Origin: Wenzhouxiangella sp.
Lineage (GTDB): Bacteria; Pseudomonadota; Gammaproteobacteria; Xanthomonadales; Wenzhouxiangellaceae
DNA: 64,000 nucleotides
Direction of reading: 5' to 3'
Assembly: GCA_007694885.1 (NCBI GenBank)
Contig: REEW01000100.1
Span: 1-64,000, forward strand
The notes below the pieces were generated by a model. It worked only from the letters and a program-made list of their open reading frames with translations. It ran no database searches and was not told where the DNA came from. Positions 10,664 through 13,176 of the stretch are shown here, one piece after another. Each line of letters opens with the position of its first letter. Positions within the stretch are counted from its first letter, which is position 1. Both the position numbers and the translations under genes were made by a program.

Positions 10664-12103
10664 ATGAACGACACCTTTCTCTGGCACGACTACGAAACCT
10701 TCGGGGCCGATCCGCGGCGTGACCGGCCGGCCCAATTCGCAGCACTCCGGACCAATGTCGATCTCGAACCGATCGAAGCGCCGCTGGTCGTCTACTGCCG
10801 CCCTGCCGACGACATGCTGCCCCAACCGGCGGCCTGCATGATCACCGGCATCACGCCGCAGCTGGCCCGGCAGCGTGGCGTTCCCGAGCATGAATTCGCC
10901 GGCACCGTCTCCGAGGCGATGAGCCGTCCGGGCACCTGCAGCGTCGGTTACAACAACTTCCGTTTCGACGACGAAGTCACCCGGCATCTGTTCTGGCGCA
11001 ATTTCATCGACCCGTACGCGCGCGAATACGCCAACGGAAACACTCGCTTCGACCTCATCGACCTGACCCGCCTCACCCGCGCCCTGCGTCCGGCCGGACT
11101 GCACTGGCCCGACCGGGATGACGGCACGCCCAGCTTTCGACTCGAAGACCTGGCCCGGGCCAACGGCATGGACACCAGCCGGGCCCACGATGCGCTGGCC
11201 GACGTGGAGGCCACGCTGGGGCTGGCCAGGCTGATCCGATCGGCACAGCCGCGGCTCTGGGAATGGGCGCTGGGTTTGCGCCAGCGCCACCAGGTCGATC
11301 GCCTCCTGCGCTCGGGCAAGCCGCTGCTCCACGCTTCCGCCCGCCTGCCGGCGCAGTGGTGCGCCACAGCCCCGATATTGCCGCTCGGCGAACATCCGCA
11401 GATTCGATCCCAGTGGGTGGTCTGGAATCTTCGCGAAAGCCCGGCCCCGTTTCTGGAGCTCGACGAAGACGAGCTTGCCGACCTGCTGTGGACACCGGCT
11501 GCAGATCTGCCGGAAGGGCGCGAGCGCCTGCCCGTCAAGCTGGTCCGAAGCAATCGCTGTCCGATGCTCTCCCCGATGAGTGTTCTGGATTCGGCCGCGG
11601 CCGACCGCCTGGCAATCGACCCCGGTCGCATCCGTCGGCATGCGCAAGATATCGCCGCGGCAGTCGATTTCCGCGAACGGCTGCTACGACTGTTCCAGCA
11701 GGATCGGGCGCGGTCGACACCCGATCCCGAGATCGATTTATACGGCGGCTTCAGCCCGCGACCCGACCAGGCCCTCCGGGATCGTGTTCGATCCATGACC
11801 GGGCAGGATCTGGCGGCGCTGGGCGAGCCGTTCAGCGATGAACGACTCAACGTCCTGCTGTTTCGCTACCGCGCACGGGGCTGGCCGGAGAGCCTGGACA
11901 GTGCCGAACAGGCGCGCTGGGCCGAGTACCGCCGACGCCGGCTCGTCGACGACCCGGACCTGGCCAGCATCCGCTTGCACGACTACCAGGCTGAAGTCAG
12001 TCGGCTGCTGAGCGAGCATCCCGAAAGACGCCGCCTGCTGGAAGACCTGATGCGCTGGCCGGGGGAAATCGGCTGTCAGAGTCCGGCAACCAGACTTCAA
12101 TGA
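10664..12103 (+). CDS. sbcB: Exodeoxyribonuclease I
   Basis: FLWHDYETFGADPRRDRPAQFA DEDDh motif, GYNNFRFDDEVTRHLFWRN, HDALADVEATLGLARL. Confidence 0.94.
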   Translation: MNDTFLWHDYETFGADPRRDRPAQFAALRTNVDLEPIEAPLVVYCRPADDMLPQPAACMITGITPQLARQRGVPEHEFAGTVSEAMSRPGTCSVGYNNFRFDDEVTRHLFWRNFIDPYAREYANGNTRFDLIDLTRLTRALRPAGLHWPDRDDGTPSFRLEDLARANGMDTSRAHDALADVEATLGLARLIRSAQPRLWEWALGLRQRHQVDRLLRSGKPLLHASARLPAQWCATAPILPLGEHPQIRSQWVVWNLRESPAPFLELDEDELADLLWTPAADLPEGRERLPVKLVRSNRCPMLSPMSVLDSAAADRLAIDPGRIRRHAQDIAAAVDFRERLLRLFQQDRARSTPDPEIDLYGGFSPRPDQALRDRVRSMTGQDLAALGEPFSDERLNVLLFRYRARGWPESLDSAEQARWAEYRRRRLVDDPDLASIRLHDYQAEVSRLLSEHPERRRLLEDLMRWPGEIGCQSPATRLQ

Positions 12104-12138
12104 CTTGGCGACGAATAGTGAAGTAGTTTTTGGGGTTG

Positions 12139-12147
12139 TTATACACA
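12139..12147 (+). promoter_or_regulatory. DnaA box (TTATACACA)
   Basis: Exact match to the TTATNCACA consensus. Confidence 0.65.
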
Positions 12148-12214
12148 ACTGACTGATTCCCGAATTGACACTTTCATGACAGCAGCCAGCCCCGCCCGGG
12201 CGCCGCCATGAAAG

Positions 12215-12262
12215 CATAACCATCTGATATATATAGCTTTAAATTACTGTATAAGAAATGAC
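12215..12262. other. AT-rich tract in a GC-rich window
   Basis: cataaccatctgatatatatagctttaaattactgtataagaaatgac, lying between DnaA boxes. Confidence 0.7.
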
Positions 12263-12313
12263 CAATTCGGCGAAGAGCCGACAGCCGCCCGCTTCGATCC
12301 AGACTGCCCACAA

Positions 12314-12340
12314 GCTTATCCACAGCTTGTGTGGATAAGC
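12314..12340. promoter_or_regulatory. Inverted pair of perfect DnaA boxes (TTATCCACA / TGTGGATAA)
   Basis: GCTTATCCACA-gcttg-TGTGGATAAGC; 11-bp perfect arms, boxes at 12316-12324 (+) and 12330-12338 (-). Confidence 0.7.
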
Positions 12341-12354
12341 CCACGGTGCGTCGT

Positions 12355-12666
12355 TCAGTAACCGGTGGTAGCCGCCGAATAACGACACGCATCCTGGGCC
12401 ATGCCCTCCAGGGACAGCTGCGCGGTTTCCGTTCTTTCGGCTCGGTCCAGGAGGTCGGCGGCAGCGGACCGGCGATCGCCGCGCAGCGATCGCTTGAGCA
12501 GGCGATCGCTGCGCGGTGATACGAATTCGACCACGCTGCCGTCTTCGAAGCGCAACATCAGAACAACCGGAGGCTCACCGGCCTTGCCGGGGCGCGCGAT
12601 TACGCCGCTGATTGTTCGACCGACAATCTCCTCGCGAAGCTGGCGCGGGCTGGAAGTGGATGTCAT
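12355..12666 (-). CDS. Hypothetical protein, 103 aa
   Basis: ORF with good SD (TAGGAG about 8 nt before ATG); MTSTSSPRQLREEIVGRTISGVIARPGKAGEPPVVLMLRFEDGSVVEFVSPRSDR. Confidence 0.6.
   Translation of the reverse strand: MTSTSSPRQLREEIVGRTISGVIARPGKAGEPPVVLMLRFEDGSVVEFVSPRSDRLLKRSLRGDRRSAAADLLDRAERTETAQLSLEGMAQDACRYSAATTGY
12475..12520. repeat. Inverted repeat, 19-bp arms with 18/19 identity, containing GCGATCGC octamers
   Basis: ATCGCCGCGCAGCGATCGC-ttgagcag-GCGATCGCTGCGCGGTGAT. Confidence 0.85.
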
Positions 12667-12894
12667 GGCAAATCTCCTACAGGTTTTTACGCTCTATACC
12701 CTCATTCAAACAGGTCGCTTTCTCAAAACCTGATAAGCAGGAAACCGCGCTGGAAAAGGGGGCCAATCGCACGCATCGACGCGGCGTTTGACGACTGCGC
12801 AGATCGGGTTGAAGTTTTTACGCTTTGTCCTGACGCCGGCGAGCCGTCCGGCGTCGAACCAAGCATCCACAATCAACCTTTGGAGAATACCGAC

Positions 12895-13176
12895 ATGATC
12901 AACAAAACCATTGCTGCCCTTTTCCTCGCTATCGCCCTGGCCGGCTTCGCCATCGCCGAGCAGGCTCCGGTCAACATCAACAGCGCAACGGCAGAGGAAC
13001 TGGCCGAGGCCCTGACCGGCGTCGGCCATGCCCGGGCCGAAGCCATCGTCGCCTATCGCGAAGAAAACGGGCCGTTCGGCCACATCGACGAACTGGTCAA
13101 CGTCAGCGGTATCGGTCTGGCAACCGTCGACCGCAACCGGGACCGCATTGCCCTGGAAGAGACGGCCGGGGAATAG
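12895..13176 (+). CDS. ComEA-like helix-hairpin-helix protein with signal peptide
   Basis: Signal peptide, then VNINSATAEELAEALTGVGHARAEAIVAYREENGPFGHIDELVNVSGIG. Confidence 0.88.
   Translation: MINKTIAALFLAIALAGFAIAEQAPVNINSATAEELAEALTGVGHARAEAIVAYREENGPFGHIDELVNVSGIGLATVDRNRDRIALEETAGE

Follow-up and report, generated by a model that had tools for sequence, protein, structure and literature searches.

The gap downstream of sbcB in the window analysed here (the whole 64-kb stretch of DNA, from a Wenzhouxiangella genome) most probably contains a DnaA-reactivation site of the DARS class, with DARS2 of Escherichia coli as its closest counterpart, the function being assigned from the arrangement of sites in the DNA. 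DARS elements are non-coding DNA platforms on which the spent initiator DnaA exchanges ADP for ATP, and, to our knowledge, nearly all that is understood about DARS and datA comes from E. coli. As such a site, the element is a variant of the known DARS type, more widespread than the available papers describe and of a different construction, and its blueprint—that is, a fixed outer DnaA box together with sites of the Fis and IHF types—turns up repeatedly in many gamma- and betaproteobacteria only distantly related to E. coli.

Three exact matches to the DnaA box TTATNCACA are located at 12139-12147, 12316-12324, and 12330-12338, as a preliminary description of this DNA had reported, and an exact search showed them to be the only three in the 64 kb. 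Dinucleotide shuffles of the window (n = 100) gave a mean of 0.24 TTATNCACA matches and a maximum of 2, with at least three in 0 of 100. The source genome, a draft assembly of 2.6 Mb in 215 contigs, contains 15 TTATNCACA matches, 8 of which lie within three clusters, namely the sbcB gap of the window, a site on contig C186 with the same layout as the window cluster, and an inverted box pair in the dnaA-dnaN gap on contig C124. The proposed comparison of the genome-wide count with this interval thus shows equally dense clusters to be rare. The AT-rich tract described between the boxes is likewise present, and houses an IHF-like site and part of a Fis-like site.

These three boxes belong to a larger conserved unit, located in the convergent gap after sbcB and read on the minus strand, with box I followed after 5 bp by the inverted box II and, 3 bp further on, by box III, and then by a Fis-type site (+75), an IHF site (+109), and an outer box (+191). 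Box I (TTATCCACA; 12330-12338, minus strand) is an exact match, defines coordinate 0 of the element, and is invariant in the genus alignment; box II (TTATCCACA; 12316-12324, plus strand), also an exact match, is inverted relative to box I across the 5-bp spacer. Box III (12304-12312, plus strand) lies 3 bp from box II in the orientation of the latter and is recognized by its position and TGTG core, the box itself being degenerate (CTGCCCACA) rather than full consensus, which counts against the DARS assignment. The palindrome at +75 (GGTCATTTCTTATAC; 12249-12263, minus strand) matches the Fis consensus in full, making Fis a candidate binder. An IHF-consensus site (TATCAGATGGTTA; 12217-12229, minus strand; 8/9 match) follows at +109, and a second IHF-type site (AATCAGTCAGTTG; 12146-12158, minus strand; 8/9) at +180 abuts and overlaps the outer, or distal, DnaA box (TTATACACA; 12139-12147, plus strand), which is an exact match in the orientation of boxes II and III; like the Fis site, both IHF sites are predictions from consensus matches only. 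In the window, neither a Fis-consensus site on the outer side of the IHF site nor a box adjoining the outer box, which would be the counterpart of datA box 7, was found. Box III, the IHF sites, the palindrome of Fis type, and the fixed 5-bp spacer between the boxes at 12316 and 12330 are all additional to the preliminary description.

The element fills the gap between two convergent genes, and no gene starts in this gap. The upstream gene, sbcB (10664-12103, plus strand), encodes exodeoxyribonuclease I (NF008746, 565 bits; PF08411 and PF00929), and is a conserved neighbor with no part in the mechanism. The other is a conserved 103-amino acid open reading frame (ORF103; 12355-12666, minus strand) without a match in Pfam or NCBIfam, homologues of which occupy this position both across the genus and in another family of the order (L108). 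An Rfam search of the window gave no match. Among the open reading frames of the genome are those for IHF-alpha, one Fis-like protein, and Hda/DnaA-like proteins, with the Hda matches scoring under the curated cut-off of the family.

Conservation was examined in 60 relatives. The inverted box pair, with a spacer of 1-20 bp allowed, was found in 51 of them, with nearly all listed pairs spaced by exactly 5 bp, and the reversed control pattern was found in one genome among the 60. The surroundings of the fetched loci reveal two recurrent sites in the genus, one flanked by sbcB, ORF103, and a comEA-like gene (the window type) and the other by argS and a gamma-carbonic anhydrase gene (the C186 type). 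Both bear a third box facing the pair, with gap lengths of mostly 166-170 bp for the sbcB type and mostly 178-184 bp for the argS type. The second copy in the source genome (L016:10115-10325, contig C186) lies between divergent argS and gamma-carbonic-anhydrase-like genes. Conservation of the boxes in related genomes, proposed earlier as a check, was borne out in close relatives; two lacking the exact pair (G017 and G034) carry the element at sbcB with one mismatch. This retention at two loci, and in one-mismatch form where the exact pair is absent, supports the DARS assignment.

The sbcB element is retained in 25 aligned genomes of the genus, in which the mean pairwise identity is 1.00 for boxes I and II and 0.95 for the outer box (both values partly by selection), 0.80 for box III, 0.62-0.63 for the Fis and IHF sites, and 0.32-0.50 for the flanks and spacers. 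The second IHF-type site is visible throughout this alignment as AATCA[AG]NNNNTTG. In addition, TGTG on the element strand was observed exactly 3 bp past box II in 92-97% of 169 elements that had been gathered without requiring box III, and this unasked appearance of box III also supports a DARS-type function.

Beyond the genus, 274 genomes were sampled from the class, here taken as in GTDB and thus including the former betaproteobacteria; the exact core pattern (I-5-II-3-TGTG) was detected in 120 of them, and the reversed control of this pattern gave 0 matches in the same 274. From core-positive genomes, 60 loci were fetched and 59 cores, chosen only on boxes I-II-III, were analysed. An exact outer box in the orientation of boxes II and III was found at +192 to +215 in 46 of the 59, and only one further exact box besides the outer ones was found from +45 to +400 on both strands. 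Because the 59 cores were chosen only for boxes I-III, the outer box is not an artefact of selection, and as an independent finding it likewise supports the DARS reading. Outside the class, the exact pattern of pair plus outer box had 0 matches among about 150 genomes. In the phylum-wide sample, besides G000, it matched only 2 of about 50 class members, indicating that searching with exact patterns gives too low a count; neither DARS1 nor DARS2 of E. coli matches the exact core pattern. Across the remainder of the class, priA is the most frequent neighbor, adjoining the element at 21 of the 60 class-sampled loci and at 37 of 118 loci from the scan.

In other gammaproteobacterial families (L264-L323; for example, L265, L297, L312, and L316), a DARS-like element very often adjoins priA, and 9 of 10 large flanking open reading frames tested at those loci encode PriA, the replication restart helicase. 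The three-box genome scan also returned two Lentilactobacillus contigs and one symmetrical locus matching on both strands (L145:3656-3853; L122, L168), possibly by chance or from another arrangement.

The IHF consensus WATCAANNNNTTR is locked in position on one strand, at +119 to +122 or at +109/110, and most of the 46 class-wide cores with an exact outer box have an IHF site near +120 or +109; 9/9 matches occur in 48 of 168 pattern-selected elements, compared with about 3 expected from local shuffles. The Fis-consensus palindrome occurs at +86 or +75, preceding the IHF site by 34-35 bp, and 98 full matches were counted in +68 to +94 over 213 elements, for which shuffles of +60 to +124 predict about 8 elements. 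With core-to-IHF distances clustering at 109/110 and 119-122 bp, and those from IHF to the outer box at 71-75, 81-87, and, in rare cases, 93-94 bp, both arm lengths step by about 11 bp, or about one helical turn, as would be expected for the phasing of a DNA bend in an IHF-bent loop. These steps agree with experiments on DARS2 in which a 5-bp displacement of the IHF site in the direction of the Fis sites was more detrimental than a 10-bp one (PMC4245941).

The E. coli loci used for comparison were identified via the ChIP-seq table of PMC11317965. The DARS1 core (bioD-uvrB) reads TTATCCACT-5-TGTGGATAA-3-TGTGTATTA and the DARS2 core (upstream of mutH) reads TTATTCACC-5-TGTGGATAG-3-TGTGAAGAA, both thus having the I-5-II-3-III core of the window element, although with mismatched boxes, unlike the exact boxes I and II of the window. 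The suggestion in the preliminary description that the locus controls replication, by titration or reactivation, is supported by this comparison, and the reactivation type is favored because the pair and box III share the E. coli DARS core geometry. DARS2 further contains an 8/9 IHF match at +109, identical in offset and strand to that of the window, which, together with the approximately 11-bp phasing and the genes for IHF-alpha, Fis-like, and Hda/DnaA-like proteins, supports the assignment. Fis involvement would also be held in common, Fis being only a candidate in the window, but the essential Fis sites of DARS2 (FBS2-3) lie beyond the IHF site, whereas the Fis-type site of the window lies between the core and IHF. 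Furthermore, the exact box of DARS2 at +211 has the opposite orientation to the window outer box, and its genomic neighbors differ. The positions of the Fis sites and the lack in DARS2 of a same-orientation outer box near +191 argue against the assignment. DARS1 has a one-mismatch box at +223 in the orientation of the window outer box; unlike the window element, it has no IHF-consensus site in the scanned stretch, and it has been reported to be IHF-independent (PMC4245941).

From the observed anatomy, conservation, fixed spacings, and genes for IHF, Fis-like, and Hda/DnaA-like proteins, we infer the occupancy of the sites, nucleotide exchange, the loop, and an effect on initiation timing as follows. 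ADP-DnaA would occupy boxes I and II, whose orientations are opposite, box III being aligned with box II; opposed boxes of this kind have been described as the site of the head-to-head DnaA contact that frees ADP (PMC8682772). AAA+ domains in such contact would loosen ADP, and the released apo-DnaA would take up ATP, thereby increasing the amount of initiation-competent DnaA. IHF, with Fis, would bend the DNA between the core and the outer box, so that DnaA at the outer box (+191) could meet the core complex and stimulate or gate it.

The closest rival to DARS-type reactivation is a datA-type site, at which an IHF bend would join ATP-DnaA on the outer box to the inverted pair, with ATP hydrolysis inactivating DnaA after initiation; this activity of datA is opposite to that of DARS (PMC5742627). 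The overall plan is indeed alike, since datA combines an inverted pair (boxes 3/4) with a same-strand IHF site at +105 and a like-oriented outer box at +174. The location of the IHF site, flanked by the pair on one side and the outer box on the other, is common to both and so does not discriminate between them. However, the pair spacer of datA is 3 bp, compared with 5 bp in the window and almost all relatives, and datA lacks box III and has an extra box 7 beside its outer box (box 2), whereas box III is conserved here and no second box (up to 2 mismatches) is enriched beside the outer box in the relatives. Membership in the datA type was rejected on the spacer, box III, and the absent box 7, and such a function is considered improbable. 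Simple titration, in which DnaA is soaked up without nucleotide exchange, would suit high-affinity consensus boxes in a genome with a total of only 15, but would need no fixed spacer, box III, IHF site, or helically phased outer box, and is very unlikely.

Regulation of transcription is less likely still: the perfect 11-bp inverted repeat that separates the convergent genes, with its 5-nt loop, could form a hairpin terminator, or the boxes could mark a DnaA-controlled promoter, but no promoter- or terminator-like site was found in a scan of 11900-13000, where the gap also lacks gene starts, and the same anatomy stands between the divergent argS and gamma-carbonic anhydrase genes and beside priA and other genes elsewhere. 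Both forms were rejected on this constancy of the anatomy between divergent genes and beside unrelated ones. That the locus is oriC or part of it, rated the less likely option in the preliminary description, can be given practically no credence. The locus does combine DnaA boxes with an AT-rich tract and a site of the IHF type, as origins do, but the dnaA-dnaN gap, with its own inverted pair, is on contig C124 and is the likely oriC. Within the window, all 8-kb blocks have a negative GC skew, without a sign change. Skew samples from a complete relative are mainly positive as far as about 1.8 Mb and mainly negative thereafter, so the switches fall at dnaA-dnaN and near 1.9 Mb rather than at the sbcB locus (1.6 Mb). 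An origin at the window was thus rejected on gene linkage and skew.

The map positions of the two copies bear on the choice between DARS and datA in different ways. In three single-contig genomes of the genus, the sbcB copy is separated from dnaN by 0.83, 0.90, and 0.60 of the half-genome, and this distance from oriC speaks against a datA-type function; the argS copy, which is found 91-99 kb away from dnaN in two complete relatives, has a datA-like position near oriC, which favors that function and counts against the DARS reading. The corresponding values in E. coli are 0.66 for DARS1, 0.41 for DARS2, and 0.20 for datA. No constant map position was found across the class, the distances from dnaN varying widely.

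Conservation of DARS2 has been mentioned in a review (PMC5742627), conservation of its core has been described as specific to gammaproteobacterial relatives of E. coli (PMC4245941), and a published alignment covers E. coli-proximal species, including Vibrio and Shewanella (PMC8682772). In the open-access literature, no DARS study beyond this E. coli-proximal group was found, although some of the sites may have been mentioned earlier. If the element acts as a DARS, DNA-driven reactivation of DnaA would be general in the cell cycles of the class, given a core in 120 of 274 genomes. The conserved outer DnaA box is a feature that E. coli DARS2 lacks in such form, through its helical phasing the IHF-loop model can be tested directly, and the pattern allows such sites to be annotated in unstudied genomes.

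The shared plan suggests, without proving, a common ancestry of datA and DARS2. It is conceivable, though rather doubtful, that one ancestral IHF-bent platform, consisting of an inverted core, an IHF site, and a phased outer box, gave rise to both. On this tentative scheme, a near-ancestral form, with DnaA on the outer arm and the Fis-type site kept between the core and IHF, would survive in many gamma- and betaproteobacteria; E. coli DARS2 would have moved Fis to the outer arm, and the core spacer of datA would have changed from 5 to 3 bp. The two copies in the genus, near and far from oriC, may then divide the activating and inactivating roles.

E. coli DARS2 was also observed to contain a second, degenerate core-like stretch, TTATCCCAG-5-TGTGGATAA-3-GGTGTAAGA, about 316 bp from the first (L229:2452-2489, corresponding to about 2969451-2969488 in E. 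coli MG1655).
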